This document shows, in pieces, positions 14,304 through 38,935 of a DNA stretch of 64,000 nt. Where the stretch lies: contig JAPLDH010000048.1 of the NCBI GenBank assembly GCA_026391355.1, forward strand, positions 1 to 64,000, in the 5' to 3' direction. Each line of letters starts with the position of its first letter. Position 1 is the stretch's first letter. Below the pieces are notes generated by a model that saw only the letters and a program-made list of their open reading frames with translations, was not told the DNA's origin and searched no databases. Made by a program: the position numbers and the translations under genes. Source of the stretch: Bacteroidota bacterium (lineage in GTDB: Bacteria; Bacteroidota; Bacteroidia; Bacteroidales; FEN-979).

Positions 14304-15392
14304 AATATTAAAGAAATATTAAATAAAGATTTTTTTTCGAAAGAGGATCTAATAACTCTTCTCTCATGTGAAGATGGGGAGAGCAGGAAGATATTTGAGC
14401 TGGCAGCCGCAACAAAAAAGAAGTATGTCGGGAAGAAGGTCTATTTCCGCGGACTGATCGAATACTCGAATTATTGCTCCAAGAATTGTCTTTATTGTGG
14501 TATCCGCGCAGGTAATAGTCGTTATGTCAGGTACCAGATGACCGATGAGGAGGTGCTGGAAGCTGCGATATATGCTTATCAGAACCGGTTCGCCTCCATC
14601 GTGATCCAATCCGGTGAACGAAATGACAAAAAGTTTATCAGCGAGATTGAACGTTTATTAATTGAGATCCATCAGTTAAGTGATGGTAAGTTGCACATCA
14701 CCCTTTCACTGGGAGAACAGTCTGAAGATACTTACAGACGATGGATAGCAGCCGGGGCTCAGCGGTATTTGCTAAGAATTGAAGTCTCGGATCCTGAACT
14801 ATACACAAAATTGCATCCGAACGACAGGCATCACAACTACTATGACCGTTTGGAAGCTTTGAAAACTCTGCGGAAAATTGGTTACCAGGTAGGTACAGGT
14901 GTTATGATCGGACTCCCTTTCCAGACCATCGACAACCTGGCAGATGACCTGATTTTCTTTCGTGATTTTGATGTCGATATGGTTGGAATGGGACCCTACA
15001 TTGAACATGAAGATACTCCCCTTTTCCAATACAAGGACACACTCCTTCCATTAAACGAAAGGTTCAGGCTTTCCCTGAAGATGGTGGCCATATTGCGTAT
15101 CATGATGAAAGACATCAACATTGCCGCCACAACAGCCATGCAAACCATCGACCCCCAGGGTCGCGAAAAAGCCATGATGGTGGGCGCCAATGTGATCATG
15201 CCCAACCTTACTCCAGTTAAATACCGGCAGAATTATCTTTTATATGAGAATAAGCCTTGCCTGGATGAAGAGGCAGAAGAATGTAAGAGTTGCCTGGAAG
15301 TGAGGATCGCCATGGCCGGCGATGAGATCGGGTACGGAGAATGGGGCGACTCAAGGCATTTCGAGAACCGTAACGAAGGCAAGGGGGAATAA
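14295..15392 (+). CDS. hydE: [FeFe] hydrogenase maturase HydE (radical SAM)
   Basis: The product (365 aa) is a radical SAM enzyme needed, with HydF and HydG, to build the 2Fe subcluster of [FeFe] hydrogenase. The radical SAM cluster motif is CSKNCLYCG near residues 57-65, followed by IVIQSGE and the TIM-barrel strands seen in HydE. A C-terminal EECKSCL pair plus the GYGEWGDSRH end also fit HydE. The best start is a GTG within a GTGACAAA repeat; no alternative Met occurs before residue 78, and the length agrees with known HydE. It is about 16 kb from the hydrogenase genes, and hydF and hydG are not in the window. Confidence 0.93.
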   Translation: MTENIKEILNKDFFSKEDLITLLSCEDGESRKIFELAAATKKKYVGKKVYFRGLIEYSNYCSKNCLYCGIRAGNSRYVRYQMTDEEVLEAAIYAYQNRFASIVIQSGERNDKKFISEIERLLIEIHQLSDGKLHITLSLGEQSEDTYRRWIAAGAQRYLLRIEVSDPELYTKLHPNDRHHNYYDRLEALKTLRKIGYQVGTGVMIGLPFQTIDNLADDLIFFRDFDVDMVGMGPYIEHEDTPLFQYKDTLLPLNERFRLSLKMVAILRIMMKDINIAATTAMQTIDPQGREKAMMVGANVIMPNLTPVKYRQNYLLYENKPCLDEEAEECKSCLEVRIAMAGDEIGYGEWGDSRHFENRNEGKGE

Positions 15393-26976: not shown

Positions 26977-28161
26977 TTAGTAAAACCTCATCTTCACCTC
27001 CTTAAGGAACTTCTCCTCCAGCACCCTGGCAATCCTGTGTATCACGGTTCTTCGTAACTCAAGTTCGACAGGAAGCGACGGATCCTGGTGGGCAACGTTG
27101 ATCTTTGTCCCTACCTGGAAATGTATCTCATCGCTCTCCAGCAAGCGTCTGACTATCTCATCTGCGGGACCTTTCCCAAGCTTTGTTGCCTGGGAATATG
27201 CCTTAAGTATTTCATTCACTTTGCTCAGGGTGAGGATTCCTTCCGTAATGATTTCAACACCTTCCATGTGGGCAACGGGAGGAAGGTCGATATCTGAAAT
27301 TTCATTTGAATCGGTGATCTCCCGATTGAGTTCCCTTGCCAGGAGATCAGCCGTAGTAGCACCGCAGATGATCTTCTTCCCTGTGAATTCATCAAAAAGC
27401 CTCGCAAATTCCAGATCATCGGTTTCTTCCAGCGGCGGACCCGTGCAGATCAATAGTTTTCTCGGATCCCTGAAATAGATCACCCCGCAGCTCATGTCAT
27501 CCTTCGGAAAGAAATTATCATTCAGATTCGCACGGCTGATGACCTTTGTCGATAATTTTACGGCAGAGATATCATTCTCCTCCTTTACCACTTCCCTGAT
27601 CAGCATCGAGAAATTTTCTTCACCCCAACCCATCGGATATTTCTCAGAACCCAGTCCTGACTGGGTTACGCCATCTGTACAGAAAATGATCCTGTCCTCT
27701 TTTTCAGCGGTAAATGTGCAGCCCAGGATCTCTTTTTCCCGGTGTTTCTCCGATTCCAGCACAATGCCGTTCCATTCCGGTTCAAAGGGTCTTGAACCTG
27801 TAAGGATCAGTGTTTTGGGATTCTCATATTCAAGGATTCTGACAATCCCCTCTGCATCGATCTCAATGATGGTAAACGTTGCGTAATTGGTTTCTTTCAC
27901 GCTGTCGACCGGCAGAGTTCTCATGATGATCCCTGCAATTTTTTCAGCGCTCTTGTGTTCCTGTGTGAAATTCACAGCCAGGGTAGCCGTGAGTGTAGCC
28001 AGGATGTTGGCTTTAATCCCATGGCCGATCCCATCAGAAAGTACTATGATCAGCCTGCCTTCCTCCTTGATCCTTCTGGAAAGGAAGACATCACCGCAAA
28101 CCCTTTCGTCAGCATGGTTCTTTTGCAGGCAATTGACCTCTATGTAAAAATCCCGTTCCAT
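26977..28161 (-). CDS. SpoIIE/PP2C-type phosphatase linked to the sensory hydrogenase
   Basis: The 394-aa product has the SpoIIE PP2C core: GDVF with Asp24 and VLSDGIGHG with Asp43 as Mn/Mg ligands, then FCTDGVTQSG further on. It should dephosphorylate Ser/Thr residues, perhaps on an anti-anti-sigma-like partner. It starts 3 nt after the stop of the PAS-type sensory hydrogenase, so the two are co-transcribed. In the literature, group C [FeFe] sensors of the C3 type are found next to such phosphatases. I infer that H2 sensing controls its activity. Its partner protein is not in the window. Confidence 0.82.
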   Translation of the reverse strand: MERDFYIEVNCLQKNHADERVCGDVFLSRRIKEEGRLIIVLSDGIGHGIKANILATLTATLAVNFTQEHKSAEKIAGIIMRTLPVDSVKETNYATFTIIEIDAEGIVRILEYENPKTLILTGSRPFEPEWNGIVLESEKHREKEILGCTFTAEKEDRIIFCTDGVTQSGLGSEKYPMGWGEENFSMLIREVVKEENDISAVKLSTKVISRANLNDNFFPKDDMSCGVIYFRDPRKLLICTGPPLEETDDLEFARLFDEFTGKKIICGATTADLLARELNREITDSNEISDIDLPPVAHMEGVEIITEGILTLSKVNEILKAYSQATKLGKGPADEIVRRLLESDEIHFQVGTKINVAHQDPSLPVELELRRTVIHRIARVLEEKFLKEVKMRFY

Positions 28162-28164
28162 GGC

Positions 28165-30036
28165 TTAAGGATTCTTCTTTTGTGGGGACTGATGGGATTC
28201 TATCACTGTTTTCAGCATCTTCTCCGTCTTTGCCGCTCCTTCTCCCAGCAGGAATGCGATCTTCTGTACCATGTCAAAATTCTCGTCGATCACTTCCGAT
28301 AGACGTCTTATGATCTGCTCCTTACGAACTTCAGGCGTGTACATATCACGAAGTATGCCTCCGACATATTTATTCTTACTGATCGTAAATATGGATACGC
28401 TGAGCACATTGTCGCCGTATTGCACATCCTTGTTCTCAATATCTTCATCTGAGGTCAGCACATAAGAGAACATCTTATAAAACTGGACCGGCAGAATATT
28501 TTTCAGGTCCGCACCTATCAAACCGGGGATCACCTCATCAATTGTCGCAGCATCCTCTCCAAGGATCCTGATAAAAGCCTTATTTGAGTGAACAATGTTC
28601 AGTTTCTCATCCACAATAACCACACCTGATACCAGTTTCTGGAGCATCGCCGAGAGGGTGTCGGAACCTTCTTTCTCAGATTCCTTCTCTTTCCTGGCTT
28701 TCTCTTCTGATTCCTTTAAAGCTGTCTGCGTTTTTGCCAGTTTCTCATTCAGTCCGCGCAATGACTTTATGTATTCCTGCCGGTTCCTGGAGCTGTAGAT
28801 ATGACACATGTCAGAGGTTGCCAACCCCTGGGCAATGGCTATGGCAAATTCGCGGCATGAGCTGTATCCGCAGGATTCACAACCAACATCGTTATCCATT
28901 TCATTCTGCCTGCCTATCATGGTCATCACTTCAAGAATATTTTCTTCGGGAGGAACAGGCAGTCGCTGGTCATCTTTCAGAAAAGTCCTCGAAAGATCCA
29001 ATGTTGCAGCAAATCCTATCTCCTTCTCCCAATCGGGTTTATTAAAGGTTTTTAACCTCTTATTATCATAATCGGTAACCAGCGTTCTGCGCAAGAATTT
29101 TTCTCCTCCGGGAGATGTACCAGGCCCCATCAGGCATCCCTCATTGTAAAAGATATTGAAATGCCGTTTGATCATGTCGATCCGCGAGTCGAATTCCTTA
29201 ACTGCATCCAGCATATTATTCCGGCCTTCAGTTGTAATGATGCTTCCTTCCAGCAGATCCTCACTCAAACCTGCCGACTGGATGATCCCGTTGCTGAGCG
29301 GATACAGCGATCCTTTAAAGCCCAGGGGAGGATCAAACTCGGAGAATTCAAGCATGCTTTCCCTGATGTTAAATTCCGAAAAGAGTTGACGTAACTCGAT
29401 AAATGTCAGTACAATATCGACTTTCCCATCATCCTGATATCGCAGGGCCTCGTCCTTGGTTGCAATACAAGGACCAAAAAATGCAATTTTTATATCACTG
29501 CCATATTTTTTCCTGACCGCTTTTGCCGAGGCAATCATTGGAGATACCAGCGGGGCCAAGTTATTGATCAGGTCGGGATAATACTTCTCAACAAAGGAGA
29601 CAACTGCCGGACAATTGGCTGTTATGTAATATTTCCCGTAAAATTTCTCAAACAGTTCCCTGTACTTTTCTGCAATCAGATCAACCCCGAAGGAAGCTTC
29701 TGTAACATAAGCAAAGCCGAGCGCCTTGATCATCTCCACAAATTTCCGGTAGTCGGTGATGTCGGAAAATTCACCTGAAATTGACGGGTCACAGATAGCA
29801 GCAACCTTTGCACCCGAAGAAAGGAGTTGTTTGATCTCACCGATTGAACTGCGGTAAACGATAGCAGCCGGTGAACATGCCCGGTAACAGCTACCACAAC
29901 CAATACACCGTTCGGGTAGTATGGAGGGAAATTCGGTGTTTACATCTACACGGATCGCTTTTACAGGACAGATCCGAACACAGGCGTAACACTTAATGCA
30001 TTTTTCGTGAAGGATGTTAAAGAGGGGATCGGTCAT
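28165..30036 (-). CDS. hydS: Putative sensory [FeFe] hydrogenase with PAS domain (HydS, group C3-like)
   Basis: This 623-aa protein has two N-terminal [4Fe-4S] ferredoxin motifs (C13-C23, C44-C54), a degenerate H-cluster domain (about 70-330), a CxxCGYxxC Fe-S motif (C386, C389, C394, C411), a coiled coil and a PAS domain (about 460-570). H-cluster loops read NCPAV (C142), GPCIATK (C190) and NEGC (C301). The proton-transfer Cys of catalytic enzymes is Asn, and the first L3 cysteine is Tyr297. This suits a sensor more than a catalyst. The ATG sits in a GGTCATT array. It is divergent from hydC and precedes the phosphatase. Confidence 0.85.
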   Translation of the reverse strand: MTDPLFNILHEKCIKCYACVRICPVKAIRVDVNTEFPSILPERCIGCGSCYRACSPAAIVYRSSIGEIKQLLSSGAKVAAICDPSISGEFSDITDYRKFVEMIKALGFAYVTEASFGVDLIAEKYRELFEKFYGKYYITANCPAVVSFVEKYYPDLINNLAPLVSPMIASAKAVRKKYGSDIKIAFFGPCIATKDEALRYQDDGKVDIVLTFIELRQLFSEFNIRESMLEFSEFDPPLGFKGSLYPLSNGIIQSAGLSEDLLEGSIITTEGRNNMLDAVKEFDSRIDMIKRHFNIFYNEGCLMGPGTSPGGEKFLRRTLVTDYDNKRLKTFNKPDWEKEIGFAATLDLSRTFLKDDQRLPVPPEENILEVMTMIGRQNEMDNDVGCESCGYSSCREFAIAIAQGLATSDMCHIYSSRNRQEYIKSLRGLNEKLAKTQTALKESEEKARKEKESEKEGSDTLSAMLQKLVSGVVIVDEKLNIVHSNKAFIRILGEDAATIDEVIPGLIGADLKNILPVQFYKMFSYVLTSDEDIENKDVQYGDNVLSVSIFTISKNKYVGGILRDMYTPEVRKEQIIRRLSEVIDENFDMVQKIAFLLGEGAAKTEKMLKTVIESHQSPQKKNP

Positions 30037-30320
30037 TGGTCATTAGTCATTGGTCATTAGTTATTGGTCATTAGTCATTGGTCATTGGTCATTGGTCATT
30101 AGTCATTTGTCATTGGTCATTGGTCATTAGTCATTTGTCATTGGTCATTAGTCATTTGTCATCAGGATATAAGGCAATAGGCAGTAGGCAGTAGTAATGT
30201 TAAATTCCTACATTCCAGCATTCCTGCATTCCAGCATTCCTACATTCCAGCATTCCTATATTCCAGCATTCCAGCATTCCTATATTCCAGCATTCCTATA
30301 TTTAACAAAATTACTAATTA
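30037..30320. repeat. Heptamer and octamer arrays upstream of the sensory hydrogenase
   Basis: Positions 30,037-30,160 are about 17 copies of GGTCATT/AGTCATT. Positions 30,167-30,195 are GGCAGTA units. Positions 30,207-30,300 are an octamer array of the CATTCCTG/CATTCCAG/TATTCCAG type. The hydS start codon (complement at 30,034-30,036) lies at the first repeat unit. The rest of the 432-nt gap is AT-rich and holds the regulatory signals listed separately. Confidence 0.92.
30306..30313 (-). promoter_or_regulatory. Putative -7 box (TAATTTTG) for hydS
   Basis: On the minus strand TAATTTTG matches the -7 consensus. If used, the hydS leader would be about 265 nt and consist almost wholly of tandem repeats. 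No good TTG box is seen. Confidence 0.3.
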
Positions 30321-30367: not shown

Positions 30368-30385
30368 CTGTTCATTTATTAACAA
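30368..30385. promoter_or_regulatory. Candidate Rex operator
   Basis: CTGTTCATTTATTAACAA resembles the TTGTTAA-N4-TTAACAA Rex consensus: the right half matches 7 of 7 and the left half 5 of 7. It lies between the divergent hydS and hydC promoters, and a rex gene is encoded at the end of the same locus. Assignment rests on the match alone. Confidence 0.45.
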
Positions 30386-30406
30386 TGCTAAATTTTTCAC
30401 AAATAA

Positions 30407-30468: not shown

Positions 30469-30942
30469 ATGGATGAGGTTGCCGGGAAAATCCTCCGGAA
30501 ATATCCTGCAGGAAAAAAACACAATCTGATACCCATTTTGCAGGAGTTTAAGAAACAGTCAGGAGGTCTGTCTGACGAAATTTTTCGTGAGATCAGTAAC
30601 TACTTGAATATTCCCGTAAATAAAATTCATGGTGTCTCTTCTTTTTATGATCAGTTTCGCCCTGCCGGGAAAGGGAAGCCTCAATTCCGGGTATGCTGCG
30701 GAACAAATTGTCATCTTGAAGGTTCCGGTCAAATACTGAAACAACTGGAAGAACTTCAAAAAAGCAGGACAGGTTACACCGGTCGCGACAGCCGGTTCAG
30801 CATTGAAACAGTAACCTGTTTCGGGGCATGTTCTAATTCACCTGTCATCAGTATAAATGACGGACTTCATACCAAAATCACCAAGGAAACCCTGATAAAA
30901 CTTATCGATTCACTGAAAGAAGATGGAGGAAAAGGCAGATAA
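30469..30942 (+). CDS. hydC: NADH-linked [FeFe] hydrogenase gamma subunit (NuoE-like)
   Basis: This 157-aa protein is a NuoE/HydC type thioredoxin-like [2Fe-2S] subunit. The ligands are visible as C76 or C77 with C81 (VCCGTNCHLEG) and C117 with C121 (CFGAC). It links the flavin subunit HydB to electron flow in trimeric hydrogenase. The ATG lies just after a Bacteroidota-type promoter. Its last 20 nt overlap the start of hydB in another frame, as in co-translated complexes. Confidence 0.93.
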   Translation: MDEVAGKILRKYPAGKKHNLIPILQEFKKQSGGLSDEIFREISNYLNIPVNKIHGVSSFYDQFRPAGKGKPQFRVCCGTNCHLEGSGQILKQLEELQKSRTGYTGRDSRFSIETVTCFGACSNSPVISINDGLHTKITKETLIKLIDSLKEDGGKGR

Positions 30943-32884
30943 TCAGACCTTACAGGAAATTCAGGAATTTCTTTCAGAAAAAGTGCTCAGAAATAACGGG
31001 GACAAACTAAAGAAGGAAGACCTTGAAAAATTGGCCCGGATCCGGCGTGAAAGGGTAACAACACCTGTCTTCTTTGTAGGAATGGGATCATGTGGAATTG
31101 CAGCAGGTGCAAGGTCTGTCCTGGAAGCAATAAACCATTACCTGTCAGAACACAACATACTGGCAGAGGTCATCGAAGTGGGTTGTATCGGACTTTGCAG
31201 CGAGGAACCGTTACTCGATATTCAATTACCGGGGAAAACCAGGGTTTCATTCCATAAGATAACTGCCGGCAAAGTTGAATCACTGCTGGATTCGGTGTTT
31301 GCCCGGTCGATTGATCCGGCGACTGTACTGGGACAATACAAGAGTTTTATGCAGGAAGCCTGGGCAAATATTCCATACCTTGAACAACTCCCCTATTTTA
31401 GTTTCCAGCAAAAAATTATCACAAAGGATTCAGGGATCACTTCGCCCCTTTCCATTGCCGATTATATTGCAAGGAACGGCTATAAACCGCTTTACAAGGC
31501 CGTTTTGAATTACACACCGGAAATGGTCTGCAACTTCATCGAGCAAAGTGAATTGAAAGGACGTGGAGGTGGTGGTTTTCTGACCGGGAAAAAGTGGAAG
31601 GTATCATTAACGACTGCAGGTGATGAAAAGTATCTGATTTGTAATGCCAATGAAAGCGATCCGGGAGCATTTATGGATCGTGCGATCATGGAAGGTTCAC
31701 CCCACAGGCTGATTGAAGGAATTGCCATTGCATCGTATGCAATTGGTGCAAATAATGCATTTATCTATATCCGGTCGGACTTCCCCGCTGCTTACCACAT
31801 CCTGGAAGAAGCCATCCGGCAGGCGATGGAATTTGGGATCCTCGGCCAGAACATCTTCGGAAGTGGATTCAACCTGAACATCGAAATCAGGCAGGGCGCC
31901 GGCGCTTTTGTATGTGGTGAAGAAACCGCACTCATCAGCAGCCTTGAAGGCAGAAGGGGCCAGCCCTCTTCAAAGCCCCCCTACCCTGCTGAGACAGGAT
32001 TGTTTGGAAAGCCAACGATCGTCAATAATGTCGAGACCCTTGCCAATGTTCCGGGCATCATTGAAAATGGTCCCGCCTGGTTCCGGAACATCGGAACAAA
32101 AGCAAGCAGGGGGACAAAACTTTTCTCCCTGAATGGTAAAATCAAACATTCGGGTTTTATTGAAGTTCCCATGGGAACAAAGCTCACCGATATCATTTAT
32201 AAAATAGGCGGTGGTATCAAGGAAGACCGGAAACTGAAAGCAGTTCAGATCGGCGGACCTTACGGTGTATGCATACCGGATTCACATATTCATTATGAAG
32301 TAGGGTTCGATTCGCTGAAAGAAGTAGGTGCGATGATCGGCCTGGGAGGCCTGACCATCCTGGATGAAACCGTATGTATGGTTGATCTCGCCCGGTATTT
32401 TATGGATTTCCTCCAGCAGGAAAGCTGCGGAAAATGCATTCCATGCAGGGAGGGAACACGCCGGATGCTGGACATCCTTGAAGGGATAACCAAAAGGCCG
32501 AAGGAGGAATCCTCACATGAAACCCTCGAAAGATTTAAAGGTGTTGTCCAGATGGAAACCCTTGCAGAAGTCATGAAGGAGACCTCACTTTGCGGATTGG
32601 GACAAAATGCACCCAACCCGGTTCTCAGTTCATTGCGCTGGTTCAGAGATGAGTTCGAAGAACATATTTTTGACCGTCGATGTGCAGCCGGCATTTGCCG
32701 TGACCTCAGGACTTTCTTTATCAATGTCGATGCGTGTAACGGATGTAATATCTGTCAGAAGAAATGTCCGGAAAATGCCATTATCGGCGTTATAAAAATG
32801 CCGCATTTCATCGTGGAAGAAAAATGTAACGGTTGCGGGATCTGCTTTGAAAGCTGTAAGTTTAATGCTATCTATTTTAAATAA
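30923..32884 (+). CDS. hydB: NADH-linked [FeFe] hydrogenase beta subunit (NuoF-like)
   Basis: This 653-aa subunit carries FMN and the NAD(H) site (KGRGGGGFLTGKKW near residue 213 and the GAGAFVCGEETALI segment), a [4Fe-4S] site ESCGKCIPCREG and two C-terminal ferredoxin motifs (CNGCNICQKKCP and CNGCGICFESC). With HydA and HydC it forms a complex of the Thermotoga HydABC class, likely bifurcating electrons between NADH and ferredoxin. The N-terminal thioredoxin-like domain has only three cysteines (C57, C88, C92), where the Thermotoga protein has four or more, so that [2Fe-2S] site is doubtful. It is followed by hydA 8 nt later. Confidence 0.93.
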   Translation: MEEKADNQTLQEIQEFLSEKVLRNNGDKLKKEDLEKLARIRRERVTTPVFFVGMGSCGIAAGARSVLEAINHYLSEHNILAEVIEVGCIGLCSEEPLLDIQLPGKTRVSFHKITAGKVESLLDSVFARSIDPATVLGQYKSFMQEAWANIPYLEQLPYFSFQQKIITKDSGITSPLSIADYIARNGYKPLYKAVLNYTPEMVCNFIEQSELKGRGGGGFLTGKKWKVSLTTAGDEKYLICNANESDPGAFMDRAIMEGSPHRLIEGIAIASYAIGANNAFIYIRSDFPAAYHILEEAIRQAMEFGILGQNIFGSGFNLNIEIRQGAGAFVCGEETALISSLEGRRGQPSSKPPYPAETGLFGKPTIVNNVETLANVPGIIENGPAWFRNIGTKASRGTKLFSLNGKIKHSGFIEVPMGTKLTDIIYKIGGGIKEDRKLKAVQIGGPYGVCIPDSHIHYEVGFDSLKEVGAMIGLGGLTILDETVCMVDLARYFMDFLQQESCGKCIPCREGTRRMLDILEGITKRPKEESSHETLERFKGVVQMETLAEVMKETSLCGLGQNAPNPVLSSLRWFRDEFEEHIFDRRCAAGICRDLRTFFINVDACNGCNICQKKCPENAIIGVIKMPHFIVEEKCNGCGICFESCKFNAIYFK

Positions 32885-32892
32885 CCGGGAAC

Positions 32893-34602
32893 ATGCTGTT
32901 CACCATAGAAATTAACGATCAGAAAGTATCCGCCAGGAGAGGTGAAACCATTCTGACCGTGCTGAACCGTTCAGGAATCCGGGTGCCTACATTGTGTCAT
33001 CTGAATGGATATACGCCTACCGGGTCTTGCCGACTATGCGTGGTGGAGGTCGAAGGAATACGCAGTCTGATTCCCTCCTGTTCAGCCCCGGTTGAAGAAT
33101 GGATGAAGATACGAACGCATACTCCCCGTGTTCTAAAAGCAAGGAGAACCATCGTTGAATTATTGCTGGCCAATCATCCCGATGATTGCTTTTATTGCGA
33201 TCGCAGCGGAGGTTGTGAACTCCAGGCATTGGCCGACGAACTCAATGTTCATGAGCGAAAGTATATGAACCGCCGGAAACCTGTCCAGGTCGACAGGAAT
33301 TGCCCGGCGATTGAAAGAAATCCCGCCAAATGTATCCTTTGTGAAAGATGTATCAGGGTTTGTGATGAAATGATCGGGGTATCGGCCATCGAAATCATCG
33401 GAAGAGGAAATAAGAGCCAGATCGGTACCGGGATCAACAAAGGATTGAATTACACAGCCTGCGTTAAATGCGGTCAATGCATCATGGTATGCCCTACCAA
33501 TGCCCTGAAGGAAAAGACCACATTTCCTAACGTGGTGGAGGCCCTGAATAACCGCGAACTTTACCCGGTTATCCAGTTTTCACCTACTGTTCCTGTTTCC
33601 ATCGCCGATGAGATCGGGATCAAACCGGGAAAGGACATCATGACCTTGTTACGTACTGCCATGCAGCGAATTGGTTTTAAGCAGGTATTCGACAGTTCAT
33701 TTGGAGCCGATATCAATATCATGGAAGTCGCGGCTGAACTTGCGCAACGGATCAAAACAGGAGAAAATCTGCCTCTGTTCACAAGCTGTTGTCCGGCATG
33801 GGTAAAATACATTCAGGACACGAAACCGGAATATAAAGGGTGGTTATCCACAACAAAATCCCCACAGTTGATAACGGGTGAGATTTTTAAAAGATACTTT
33901 GCTCCGCTTGCAGGAATTCCAGGGGAAAAAGTTTTCATGGTGTCGGTAATGCCATGTACCGCTAAAAAATATGAATCAGTAAATGAGCAATCCAAATCTG
34001 AGGTCGATGCCGTTATCACAACACGCGAACTCCTGAAAATGATTCGTATGCTTGGGATTGATTTTACTACCCTGGAACCTGAACAAACGGCTTCCTCCAA
34101 CAATATCCGCAGTTCTGCGGGTGTTTTATTCGGTGCTGCAGGTGGCGCCCTGGAAGGGATTCTCCGTACTCTCCATTTTCAATTGACAGGAGAAGAGTTG
34201 GCTAATTATAAGATCCCTGAACTTCGTGGTTTTAAGGGAAGGAAGGAAGGGAAGATCATGATCGGGAAAACAGCCATTGGCTATGCAGCAATCAGCGGAC
34301 TGGCCAATGCCAAGAGTTTGATGAATGAAATCAAAGCAGGTCGTAATGATCTTCATATCATTGAAATTATGGCTTGCCCAAACGGGTGCATCAATGGTGG
34401 AGGACAGCCGTTTGATACTTCCGAAAAATCCATCCGTTCAAGGATGAAAGCCCTGCATGACACAGATGATACCGAATTGATCAGGGTTGCGCATAAGAAC
34501 CCGCTTGTAAGCGAAATCTATTCCCGCTTGCTGGGTCAACCCAACAGTGAATTAAGCAAAGAGCTTCTTCACATTACATATGCAGATCAACCGCCGGTAT
34601 GA
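32893..34602 (+). CDS. hydA: [FeFe] hydrogenase catalytic subunit
   Basis: The 569-aa enzyme has an N-terminal [2Fe-2S] domain (C35, C46, C49, C63), a His-ligated cluster (H95, C99, C102, C108), two ferredoxin clusters (C147-C157, C190-C200) and a complete H-cluster domain. Its three signatures are TSCCPAW (C299, C300), MPCTAKKYES (C355) and MACPNGCINGGGQP (C495, C499). The proton-transfer cysteine (C299) is intact, so catalysis is expected. The C-terminal small-subunit-like part ends with LLHITYAD. Its stop overlaps the next ATG by 4 nt. Confidence 0.96.
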   Translation: MLFTIEINDQKVSARRGETILTVLNRSGIRVPTLCHLNGYTPTGSCRLCVVEVEGIRSLIPSCSAPVEEWMKIRTHTPRVLKARRTIVELLLANHPDDCFYCDRSGGCELQALADELNVHERKYMNRRKPVQVDRNCPAIERNPAKCILCERCIRVCDEMIGVSAIEIIGRGNKSQIGTGINKGLNYTACVKCGQCIMVCPTNALKEKTTFPNVVEALNNRELYPVIQFSPTVPVSIADEIGIKPGKDIMTLLRTAMQRIGFKQVFDSSFGADINIMEVAAELAQRIKTGENLPLFTSCCPAWVKYIQDTKPEYKGWLSTTKSPQLITGEIFKRYFAPLAGIPGEKVFMVSVMPCTAKKYESVNEQSKSEVDAVITTRELLKMIRMLGIDFTTLEPEQTASSNNIRSSAGVLFGAAGGALEGILRTLHFQLTGEELANYKIPELRGFKGRKEGKIMIGKTAIGYAAISGLANAKSLMNEIKAGRNDLHIIEIMACPNGCINGGGQPFDTSEKSIRSRMKALHDTDDTELIRVAHKNPLVSEIYSRLLGQPNSELSKELLHITYADQPPV

Positions 34603-36593
34603 GCCAATCATTCAGACGCCAACTTGTTTATACCATCAAGGACCGTTGCAGGGTTTGCTACACCTGCCTGCGCGAATGTCCGGTTAAGGCAATTAAGATC
34701 ATCAATGGACAAGCAGAGGTAATCAATGACCGGTGTATCGGCTGCGGAAACTGTGTAAAAGTCTGCAGCCAGGGTGCCAAGATCTCTCTGAGGTCGGTCG
34801 ATGAGGTTTTCCAACTCCTGCACTCGGGAGAGCAGATCGCAGCTTGCATTGCTCCCAGTTTCCCTGCAGAATTTACCGATATTACTGATTATAAGATCCT
34901 AGTGGGAATGATCCGGAAACTTGGCTTTACTTATGTCAACGAAGTTGCTTTTGGAGCGGATGTAGTCGCAGAAGAATATGAGAAGCGGATAAAATCTTCC
35001 GGTTATATCGGGGATATTTCTTCCGACTGCCCTGCAGTTACCTATTTTATCCGCCATTATCATCCTGAACTGGTATCCCTGCTGGCCCCCATTGCTTCCC
35101 CGATGGTTGCCATGACCCGGATCCTCCATAAAAAACACGGAAATCACCTCAAGGTGGTCTTCATTGGTCCTTGTTTTGCGAAAAAAGCGGAATCCGGTGA
35201 AGTGGATGAGGTGATCACCTACCGTGAATTGCGTGAGATGTTCTATATACGGAATATTCAACCCCAGGAAGTGGAGCCATCCGGATTTGATCCGCCATAC
35301 AGCGGCCGGGGAGCAATATTTCCTGTTACCCGCGGATTGTACCAGACTGCCAATTACAGGGAGGATATCCCGGAAGAAAAGGTTGTAATTGCCGACGGAC
35401 GGATAAATTTCAAGGAAGCGGTGAAGGAGTTTGAAGAGGGTTTTATCCGGAACAAACACCTGGAACTATTGTGCTGCGAAGGTTGCATCATGGGGCCGGG
35501 AACAAGTCCGGGAGGAAGGAAATATGCGCGGACTGCTGCCATCGGTGAGTATGTCAGGGAAAAGCTGAATAATCTCGATCAGGATGGATGGCAGGCAGAT
35601 ATGGCAGAGTATAGGAATATTGATCTTTCGCAGAATTTTTCACCGGAAGACCGGCGGTTCACCATTCCTGATGAGGATACCATTCTTGAGGTACTTGAAA
35701 CCATGGGGAAATTCTCTGCAAAAGATCACCTGAATTGCGGGGCATGTGGTTACGACAGTTGTGTAGAGCATGCCATCGCCATTGTAAAAGGCCTGGCCGA
35801 AACGGAGATGTGCCTTCCTTATACCATTGAAAAGCTGCACGACTCGATTGAAAACCTGAATATTTCCAACGACAAGCTGGCTTCAGCCAAGCAAGCCCTC
35901 AAGCAATCGGAAAAACTGGCCCACATGGGACAATTATCTGCCGGCATTGCCCATGAGTTGAACAATCCCCTGGGAGTGATCACCATGTACAGTAACATCC
36001 TGATGGATGAAGCCAAAGAGGAGGATCCTGTACGCGAAGATTTACAGATCATTGTAGAACAGGCAGCACGTTGTAAAAAAATTGTGAGCGGGTTACTCAA
36101 TTTTGCCCGCAAGAACCAGGTAAATTATACAGAGACAGATGTCGTAAAGTTTACTGAACACAGCATCAACTCAATCATCAAACCCGATAATATCAGTATC
36201 AATTTTACACACAATATCGATGAACCGGTTACAAAGCTCGATATTGAACAAATGATGCAGGTGCTGACCAACCTTGAAAAAAACGCTGTGGAAGCCATGC
36301 CAAATGGTGGTGAACTGAAGATCAGGGTGGAAGGCGATCAGGATGAGATCGTATTTAAGATTACCGATACCGGTACCGGGATACCGAAAGAAAACATGGA
36401 CAAGCTCTTCACCCCCTTTTTTACGACCAAGGAGATCGGAAAAGGAACGGGTTTGGGCCTGCCACTTATATATGGAATCGTTAAAATGCATAAGGGAAAG
36501 ATCCAGGTTACATCCAACGCTGATCTTCGCAAAGGTGCGACAGGGACGACGTTTAAAATAACAATCCCCAGGGTGAGGAATACTGAACAATAG
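34599..36593 (+). CDS. Sensory [FeFe] hydrogenase-histidine kinase fusion (group C1-like)
   Basis: This 664-aa protein joins two ferredoxin motifs (C17-C27, C46-C56), an H-cluster domain (about 65-335), a CxxCGYxxC Fe-S motif (C380, C383, C388, C405), a short linker, a HisKA domain with H452 (SAGIAHELNNP) and a HATPase domain (N box NLEKNAVEAM, DTGTGIP, GTGLGLPL). L1 is SDCPAV (C144, with Asp143 in place of the proton-transfer Cys), L2 is GPCFAKKAES (C192, Lys195), L3 is CCEGC (C292, C296). All four predicted cluster ligands are therefore kept. It probably senses H2 or redox state and phosphorylates the next gene product. It overlaps hydA by 4 nt. Confidence 0.88.
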   Translation: MSQSFRRQLVYTIKDRCRVCYTCLRECPVKAIKIINGQAEVINDRCIGCGNCVKVCSQGAKISLRSVDEVFQLLHSGEQIAACIAPSFPAEFTDITDYKILVGMIRKLGFTYVNEVAFGADVVAEEYEKRIKSSGYIGDISSDCPAVTYFIRHYHPELVSLLAPIASPMVAMTRILHKKHGNHLKVVFIGPCFAKKAESGEVDEVITYRELREMFYIRNIQPQEVEPSGFDPPYSGRGAIFPVTRGLYQTANYREDIPEEKVVIADGRINFKEAVKEFEEGFIRNKHLELLCCEGCIMGPGTSPGGRKYARTAAIGEYVREKLNNLDQDGWQADMAEYRNIDLSQNFSPEDRRFTIPDEDTILEVLETMGKFSAKDHLNCGACGYDSCVEHAIAIVKGLAETEMCLPYTIEKLHDSIENLNISNDKLASAKQALKQSEKLAHMGQLSAGIAHELNNPLGVITMYSNILMDEAKEEDPVREDLQIIVEQAARCKKIVSGLLNFARKNQVNYTETDVVKFTEHSINSIIKPDNISINFTHNIDEPVTKLDIEQMMQVLTNLEKNAVEAMPNGGELKIRVEGDQDEIVFKITDTGTGIPKENMDKLFTPFFTTKEIGKGTGLGLPLIYGIVKMHKGKIQVTSNADLRKGATGTTFKITIPRVRNTEQ

Positions 36594-36724: not shown

Positions 36725-37120
36725 ATGGCAACTAGTAAAACGATTTTAATTGTCGATGACGATCAGGACTACCTGTTTCAGACAAAACTGAAGATCGAGA
36801 AGTTCGGGTATCAGGTGATAACTGCAGAAAGCCAGCGGGAAGCCGAGCTTATAATCGACAAAACCATGCCTGACCTTGCCATCATTGACCTAATGATGGA
36901 AAATGAAGACAGCGGTTTTATCTTAAGCTACAAGATCAAGAAAAAGTATCCCGCAGTACCGGTTATTATTGCTACTGCTGTAGCAACGGAAACGGGCATC
37001 AGCTTTGATATCAATGATGAAAATAACCGTAAATGGATAAAAGCCGATCTCTTCCTTGAGAAAGGAATACGGTCTGATTTATTAAAGGATGAAATTGACC
37101 GGTTATTAATAAAAAAATGA
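36725..37120 (+). CDS. Single-domain response regulator
   Basis: The 131-aa protein is a lone REC domain: acidic pocket D11-D13, phospho-acceptor D55 (IIDLMM) and the conserved Lys in LFLEKGI. There is no output domain, so it works like Spo0F/CheY as a relay or protein partner. Its position after the hydrogenase-kinase fusion suggests it is the cognate receiver, passing phosphate or binding another target, but this is an inference from order. Confidence 0.88.
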   Translation: MATSKTILIVDDDQDYLFQTKLKIEKFGYQVITAESQREAELIIDKTMPDLAIIDLMMENEDSGFILSYKIKKKYPAVPVIIATAVATETGISFDINDENNRKWIKADLFLEKGIRSDLLKDEIDRLLIKK

Positions 37121-37169: not shown

Positions 37170-38303
37170 ATGTCGATACTAAAGATCCTGGTCGTAGATG
37201 ATGAACCCGGAATCCGCAGCGGAGTAAGCCGGATCCTGCGTAATTTCAGGGTAGATTATCCGTTTATGGAGGAACCTTATGAGTTTGAGGTTTATGAAGC
37301 TTCAACAGGGGAATCCGGAATCGAGATCATTGAAACGAACCAACCCGACATCCTTCTACTCGACAATAAACTTCCGGGAATCCAGGGTATAGAGGTATTA
37401 GATTATGTAAAGAAAAGAAAGTTGAACATTGTGGTGGTAATGATCACTTCATATGCTTCTCTTGAACTGGCTGTTAAAGCTACAAGCGACGGCGCTTACG
37501 ATTTTATTCCAAAACCGTTTACCCCGCAGGAGCTCAAATCATCTATTGAGAATATCACCAAAAGGGCTTTCCTGAAAAAGATGACACGCGATTTGCAGGA
37601 TAGCGGTAAGCAGGTCAGGTTTCAGTTTCTTTCGGTTTTATCGCATGAATTGAAAGCCCCTTTAAATGCCATTGAAGGTTACCTGCAAATGACCAAAGAA
37701 CGGCAACTGGGTGACAAAATAGAGGATTATAACCAGATCATTGACCGGTCACTGGAAAGAATAAAAGGAATGCGCAACCTTATCCTCGATCTGCTCGACC
37801 TTACAAAAGTTGAATCCGGCAAGATGAAACAGGATATTTCTGACGTAGACCTTCTAAAAATTGCCCATACGGCCATCGAAACCATGCGACCCTATTCTAT
37901 CCAACGTGATATTGTTATCAACCTGGATGTACCTCATAACCTCTTCGTAAAAGCAGATGCTGAGGAGATTGAAATTATTTTCAACAACCTGATATCAAAC
38001 GCAATAAAGTACAACAAAAAAGGTGGTACTGTTGATTTTGTCATCTCGGAGAATGGTGATTCAATTGAGATCAACGTTAAGGATTCCGGCATTGGAATGA
38101 CACAACCGGAAATGGACAAACTTTTCCAGGATTTTGTCAGGATAAAAAATGAGAAAACCAAAAATATTACGGGCAGCGGCCTGGGCTTATCAATCGTGAA
38201 AAAACTCGTTGAAAACTATGGGGGCAAAATAGATGTCTGCAGTGTTCCCGACCAGGGTAGTCAATTTATTGTCACACTTCCAAAAGAAAAACCATGTTTG
38301 TAA
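37170..38303 (+). CDS. Receiver-histidine kinase hybrid
   Basis: This 377-aa cytoplasmic protein starts with a REC domain (D10-D11, phospho-acceptor D65 in LLLDNKLPG, K115 in FIPKPF), followed by a short linker, HisKA with H159 (LSHELKAPLNAIEGY) and HATPase (N box NNLISNAIKYN, DSGIGM, GSGLGLSIV). No sensor or membrane segment is present, so its input is probably phosphate on its own REC domain. Its 3' end overlaps rex by 10 nt. I infer a relay in the hydrogenase locus; the final output protein is not identified. Confidence 0.88.
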   Translation: MSILKILVVDDEPGIRSGVSRILRNFRVDYPFMEEPYEFEVYEASTGESGIEIIETNQPDILLLDNKLPGIQGIEVLDYVKKRKLNIVVVMITSYASLELAVKATSDGAYDFIPKPFTPQELKSSIENITKRAFLKKMTRDLQDSGKQVRFQFLSVLSHELKAPLNAIEGYLQMTKERQLGDKIEDYNQIIDRSLERIKGMRNLILDLLDLTKVESGKMKQDISDVDLLKIAHTAIETMRPYSIQRDIVINLDVPHNLFVKADAEEIEIIFNNLISNAIKYNKKGGTVDFVISENGDSIEINVKDSGIGMTQPEMDKLFQDFVRIKNEKTKNITGSGLGLSIVKKLVENYGGKIDVCSVPDQGSQFIVTLPKEKPCL

Positions 38304-38935
38304 AACATCTTCCCCATAAAACAGTAGAACGGCTGAGTCAATACAGACGTACACTACTGTTGATCCTTTCAAAGGAAAAGACCCATGTGTTTTCACATGA
38401 AATTGCACAGATGCTGCATATAACACCTGTCCAGGTGCGAAGGGACCTCATGCTGATCGGTTACTCCGGCAACCTCCGGAAAGGTTATGACATTAAGGAA
38501 CTGATCGAAATGATCGGAAAGATCATCGATACCGAAAAGGGGCAGAAAGTTGCCGTGGTAGGTTTGGGTAACCTTGGAAAAGCATTCATCAGTTATTTCA
38601 AGGGAAAAAGAAGCAAACTGACCATTGTTGCGGCGTTTGACAATAACCCGTATAAAATTGACAAGGTTTATGATGGTGTTCCATGTTTTCATGTCGACCG
38701 GATCTCTGAGATCATCAAAAGAGATAACATCTCTATCGCGATCATTACCGTCCCTTCCGAACAGGCTCCCGTGATAGCGGAAACCCTCGTCCTGGCAGGC
38801 ATCAAGGGAATACTGAATTACACACCCAAACCGTTGAACGTCTCACCCTATGTGTATCTTGAAGAGTACGACATGATTACGTCGCTTGAAAAAGTTGCCT
38901 TTTTCGCGAAAAAGAACGATGAACGATTTAAATGA
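38294..38935 (+). CDS. rex: Redox-sensing transcriptional repressor Rex
   Basis: The 213-aa protein has an N-terminal winged helix (VERLSQYRRTLLLIL, HITPVQVRRDLMLIGYSG) and a Rossmann domain with VVGLGNLGKAF. The C-terminal domain-swapping helix ends in ITSLEKVAFFAK. Rex releases DNA when NADH/NAD+ rises, and in anaerobes it controls fermentation and hydrogenase genes. It overlaps the preceding kinase gene by 10 nt. A Rex-like site occurs upstream of hydCBA. In Bacteroidota this pairing would let excess NADH induce H2 production. Confidence 0.92.
   Translation: MFVKHLPHKTVERLSQYRRTLLLILSKEKTHVFSHEIAQMLHITPVQVRRDLMLIGYSGNLRKGYDIKELIEMIGKIIDTEKGQKVAVVGLGNLGKAFISYFKGKRSKLTIVAAFDNNPYKIDKVYDGVPCFHVDRISEIIKRDNISIAIITVPSEQAPVIAETLVLAGIKGILNYTPKPLNVSPYVYLEEYDMITSLEKVAFFAKKNDERFK

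Follow-up and report, generated by a model that had tools for sequence, protein, structure and literature searches.

A probable H2/redox-sensing histidine kinase of the [FeFe]-hydrogenase type with a shortened L3 loop, encoded beside hydCBA in a Bacteroidales genome

The 64,000-nucleotide stretch of Bacteroidales DNA analysed here, called the window, encodes on its plus strand (34599..36593) a 664-amino-acid protein, HydS_HK, in which an [FeFe]-hydrogenase-like H-domain is fused to a histidine kinase (HK). With moderate confidence HydS_HK is regarded as a soluble histidine kinase that responds to H2 or redox state, of the kind known as group C (sensory) [FeFe]-hydrogenases; it is encoded together with the bifurcating hydrogenase HydABC, which it probably helps regulate. 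The assignment to a sensing kinase is based on its domain order, the intact kinase boxes, the ligand cysteines and an equivalent of CpI K358 present in 38 of 38 intact HK fusions, the HydEFG maturases and the conserved gene order. The architecture, the ligand set, the operon, the kinase and receiver residues and the maturases are all read from the sequence.

The ORF described in the first-pass annotation is genuine, and the H-domain/HisKA/HATPase_c fusion is backed by Pfam E-values; a chance ORF or a domain misassembly was ruled out, the layout recurring in related loci. HydS_HK starts with two ferredoxin-type [4Fe-4S] motifs (34647..34766, C17/C20/C23/C27 and C46/C49/C52/C56; Pfam Fer4), followed by the H-domain (residues 79-300, 34833..35498; PF02906, E=5e-43) and a C-terminal CX2CX4CX16C [4Fe-4S] motif (C380/C383/C388/C405, 35736..35813; PF04060, E=4.7e-9, matching residues 378-407). 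HisKA comes directly after this motif (residues 443-506, 35925..36116; PF00512, E=5.7e-14), no PAS domain being matched by Pfam in HydS_HK, and HATPase_c, with its N, G1, F, and G2 boxes, closes the protein (residues 548-658, 36240..36572; PF02518, E=1e-24). The proposal of H452 as the phospho-acceptor holds, this residue being situated in AHELNN and the ATP-binding boxes being intact. The AlphaFold2 model has an overall pLDDT of 82.0, with most of the H-domain above 90, and a signalling helix beginning at residue 406, right after the C-terminal cluster motif. In the PDB the closest folds are those of [FeFe]-hydrogenases, CpI included; 6glz and 8pvm, structures of the CpI variant C299D, are among the matches. 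In one genome (locus L072, 848-2814) an HK-fused sensor is broken into two overlapping ORFs by a frameshift or an assembly error.

The intact HK fusions comprise 13 close orthologues (55-100% identity) and 25 distant ones (ca. 40-46%). All 38 keep the eight ferredoxin cysteines, C144, C192, C293, C296, the four C-terminal cysteines and H452, a conservation which, judged from the sequences, is not due to chance. The first-pass annotation had listed C144, C192, C292, and C296 as the H-cluster ligands, corresponding to C300, C355, C495, and C499 of HydA from the same locus. MAFFT and hhalign, the latter with a profile of 46 sensors against one of 21 HydA, confirmed three of these pairs, the exception being C292: the partner of HydA C495 is C293, while C292 faces Ala494, and a one-residue gap in HydS_HK relative to HydA follows immediately after C293. 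The L1 ligand C144 lies next to Asp143 (35025..35030), and the L2 ligand C192 is encoded at 35172..35174. According to the predicted structures, L291 of HydS_HK and M493 of HydA are the last residues of the L3 strand, each two positions ahead of C293 or C495, and the short helix that follows starts at C296 and C499, respectively, which makes the intervening loop of HydS_HK shorter by one residue. Position 292 is Cys in 13/13 close orthologues, thus being fixed only in the close clade, and Phe in 25/25 distant fusions, all of them with Cys at 293; C292 was therefore dropped as a conserved ligand. The alignments, the profile comparison, the strand register and the 25 relatives with Phe-292 concur in making C293 the partner of C495.

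With C293 and C296 as the L3 ligands, the L3 motif C292-C293-E-G-C296 (35472..35486) is of the CX2C type, one residue shorter than CX3C of HydA, and C292 is an extra cysteine. CX3C is found in HydA (7/7), in phosphatase-linked sensors (12/12), in sensors fused to MCP or hybrid kinase modules (4/4), in two short relatives, and in the sensors of Ruminococcus albus, A. noterae, and M. pectinilyticus. It is also the general [FeFe]-hydrogenase spacing (ExMxCxxGC), from which the conserved residues of HydS_HK depart and to which the protein conforms only through the clade-specific C292. When the L3 columns are excluded from the tree, the CX2C lineage, comprising the HK fusions and HydS2, a second sensor described below, groups together with a support of 84 (a quick search with SH-aLRT support only, HydS2 rows lacking the cysteine being counted in the lineage); the groups nearest to the HK fusions are HydS2 and the PP2C-linked sensors. 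A single change on this tree suffices to account for the L3 deletion, which would thus map to one origin. Because of this deletion an ordinary H-cluster with canonical geometry should not be taken for granted. Fusions with a CX3C loop include an H-domain with a PAS-hybrid kinase and Hpt (L078, 4-3968, 1321 aa) and one with an MCP signalling domain (L079, 1501-3813).

The placement of Asp143 at the position of the proton-transfer cysteine, C299 of CpI, made in the first-pass annotation, was borne out by both MAFFT and hhalign. In CpI numbering, the HydS_HK pocket carries the replacements C299 to Asp, M353 to Gly, M497 to Leu, Q325 to Met, and S319 to Ala; the loss of C299 together with the replacement of M353 and M497 (D143, G190, and L291) is a trait of sensory group C. 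P231 and K358 (Lys195, close to C192) are kept, the K358 equivalent in 38/38 HK fusions, in which P231 and mostly S232 are retained as well. K358 helps hold the [2Fe] subsite. Asp143 is fixed in 13/13 close orthologues, while the distant HK fusions carry Pro, Ala, or Ser. Among sensory sequences 17% have Cys at position 299 and about 43% have Ala, and Asp is the sole replacement of C299 that prototypical enzymes tolerate (PMC10055695). By analogy, Asp143 may still relay protons. The earlier suggestion of a catalytically tuned cluster controlling a kinase agrees with these substitutions and with an HK fusion bearing a full set of ligand cysteines, but not in its choice of C292 and the L3 spacing that this implied.

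HydS_HK lies directly downstream of hydC, hydB, and hydA (30469..34602, +), coding for a hydrogenase of the electron-bifurcating type; the best model for HydA is NF040763 (group A6), with 663 bits, under its cut-off of 765. Next on the plus strand come a stand-alone receiver (36725..37120) with conserved D12, D55, and K113, a likely phosphate acceptor, a REC-HisKA-HATPase_c hybrid kinase (37170..38303; D60, H159), likely the next relay step, rex coding for the Rex redox-sensing repressor (38294..38935; NCBIfam NF003995, 197.7 bits against a cut-off of 126), and a ribF-like gene. The gene cluster encodes no DNA-binding response regulator. On the minus strand, upstream of hydC, lie the genes for HydS2 (28165..30036), an H-domain sensor with a weak PAS, and for the SpoIIE-type PP2C phosphatase paired with it (26977..28161; PF07228, E=5.4e-13). 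The order recurs in Bacteroidales MAGs, some of which lack HydS2, rex, or both, while that of hydCBA, HydS_HK, the receiver and the hybrid kinase is maintained in related loci. HydE is encoded on the same contig ca. 20 kb upstream (14307-15332), inside the window, and HydF and HydG on other contigs of the genome, with scores over the curated cut-offs.

The divergent hydS2/hydC promoter region contains two Rex-type boxes 17 bp apart (30368..30402), matched in 1/1000 shuffles. Such a pair is present in 10/10 loci of this cluster type in which rex lies downstream or the contig ends before it (the window, L007-L011, L014, L018, L019, and L024), and is absent upstream of hydC in L012, L015, L016, and L090-L093, where the stretches examined are devoid of rex. 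The same intergenic region contains minisatellites (30031-30162, with 7/28-bp units, and 30205-30296, with 8/16/24-bp units), which are absent from the intergenic regions of the relatives inspected. In L024 (8410-10227) the same operon encodes a protein with a kinase part 61% identical and a Cache_3-Cache_2 sensor in place of the H-domain; the kinase module is therefore exchangeable and the relay does not depend strictly on H2 sensing. No H-domain was found in the genomes of L026, L027, L028, and L031.

In HydS2 of the window, the equivalent of C499 is Asn298 (codon 29143-29145) and that of K358 is Thr. At the former position Asn or Asp occurs in close HydS2 relatives (L007, L008, L009, L014, and L017) and Cys in the remaining HydS2 proteins; the lysine is absent in 14/14 (Ala, Thr, or Ser). 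On these residues, HydS2 probably lacks a normal H-cluster.

The mechanism proposed for HydS_HK starts with HydEFG, which would add the [2Fe] subsite to a cubane whose ligands are C144, C192, C293, and C296. Binding of H2, or the redox poise, would then alter the H-domain, and the change would pass through the C-terminal [4Fe-4S] domain and the helix starting at residue 406 to the HisKA bundle and modify phosphorylation of H452. From H452 the phosphate would go to the stand-alone receiver and the hybrid kinase, and Rex would add NADH control at the locus. Assembly of the cluster, H2 as the signal, the direction of control and the identity of the final output are what we infer. In TamHydS the C-terminal cluster is not reduced by H2 (PMC13104023), which makes a conformational path through the C-terminal domain of HydS_HK likelier than electron transfer. 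On a more speculative note, CX2C, Asp143, and Cys292 together might constitute a re-engineered site turning over H2 poorly and serving as a kinase switch, while a degenerate HydS2 would report a signal other than H2 to its phosphatase, giving the kinase and the phosphatase separate inputs; we consider this combined scheme possible, though rather unlikely.

A reading to which we assign a minor but real share of probability is that the H-domain holds only the [4Fe-4S] cubane, devoid of the [2Fe] subsite, and that cellular redox state or oxygen, rather than H2, is the signal for the kinase. It is favoured by the one-residue deletion in the very loop that bears a cubane ligand and the bridging cysteine, by the sister lineage, HydS2, deprived of the K358 equivalent and in part of a ligand cysteine, and by the group C1 proteins of Hydrogenedentota, mostly lacking the motifs (PMC11406978). 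Against it stand the ligands, invariant in 38/38 HK fusions, the presence of HydEFG in the genome, and the retention by these fusions of the K358 equivalent, P231, and mostly S232, the lysine being the residue that HydS2 has lost. It is less probable still that in the clade of the window C292, not C293, holds the cubane: the cysteine in all 13 close orthologues would restore CX3C spacing, but each of the 25 distant fusions has Phe there together with C293, and the HydA profile alignment and the predicted strand register set C293 at C495. That HydS_HK is chiefly an electron relay or catalytic subunit for HydABC, its kinase part being secondary, was rejected as very improbable, since despite the adjacent hydA, the ferredoxin-type clusters and the slow H2 turnover by TmHydS and TamHydS (PMC10055695, PMC8163306), HisKA/HATPase_c is intact, receiver genes adjoin in related loci, and the proton-transfer residues C299 and S319 are substituted.

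The sensing kinase that we favour belongs to a kind of sensor, and lies in a gene arrangement, already described. Sub-type V, BfuTABC, comprises an A3 hydrogenase and an HK-fused group C3 sensor, BfuT, and in the Bacteroidota Tenuifilum, Williamwhitmania, and Perlabentimonas a second bfuT lies upstream of bfuC, as reported in a 2024 study (PMC11406978). The defining feature of this sub-type, a hydCBA cluster in which hydA is followed by the gene for an HK-fused sensor, is present in the window, as are its gene order and the second sensor upstream of hydC, the comparison being one of arrangement. The window differs in the CX2C loop, in Asp at C299, and in a second sensor devoid of a ligand cysteine and of the K358 lysine. 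In the main text of that study the motif analysis covers BfuA and includes no analysis of the sensor loops. In HydDB C1 denotes histidine kinase-linked and C3 phosphatase-linked proteins (PMC5037454); the label C1 of the first-pass annotation is doubtful for HydS_HK, since PMC11406978 places HK-fused sensors of such layout in C3. Of the group C (M2f) features, HydS_HK has the L1, L2, and L3 ligand cysteines and the Cx2Cx4Cx16C domain, common to groups C and D (PMC8163306), and lacks PAS.

Compared by published description, TmHydS of Thermotoga maritima (group C/M2f; PMC10055695) shares with HydS_HK the two ferredoxin clusters, the H-domain, the C-terminal cluster motif, Gly for M353, and the replacement of C299 and M497, but it contains PAS, is not fused to a kinase, and carries Ala in place of C299 and Ser in place of M497; with these two residues it remains active and able to bind the H-cluster. 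TamHydS (group D/M2e), compared in the same way, resembles HydS_HK in having the H-domain with Cx2Cx4Cx16C and in lacking PAS and C299 (PMC8163306, PMC13104023), and differs in the absence of a fused kinase, in Ala at C299, and in Ser at M353; a separate Glu proton path has been proposed for it (PMC10407848). R. albus HydS (L094, RUMAL_RS17375), like HydS_HK, belongs to group C and is encoded near rex, with 36% identity over 97% of residues 1-412, but has a CX3C L3, Cys at C299, and a SpoIIE phosphatase link in place of a kinase. For HfsB and R. albus HydS there is regulatory evidence or proposals (PMC5707799). The engineered CpI C299D has Asp beside the H-cluster as HydS_HK does, but is catalytic and of the CX3C type. 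A hydrogenase also serves as the H2 receptor for a histidine kinase in the pair of the [NiFe] group 2b regulatory hydrogenase and HoxJ. HydS_HK would work alike, although the metal centre and the family are unrelated and the [NiFe] pair consists of separate subunits, not of one chain; group 2b is listed in PMC5037454.

In the literature searched we found no description of the CX2C loop, of an invariant Asp, or of the residues lost from HydS2, an earlier report being possible, and no demonstration of H2 signalling to an effector by any sensory [FeFe]-hydrogenase. With the H-domain and the kinase in one chain, signalling can be assayed directly by comparing autophosphorylation in the presence and absence of H2. 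HydS2, having lost a ligand cysteine and the lysine, provides a built-in contrast to HydS_HK at the same locus, and the clade-wide CX2C loop and the natural Asp at the proton-relay site probe how far the H-cluster pocket can vary.
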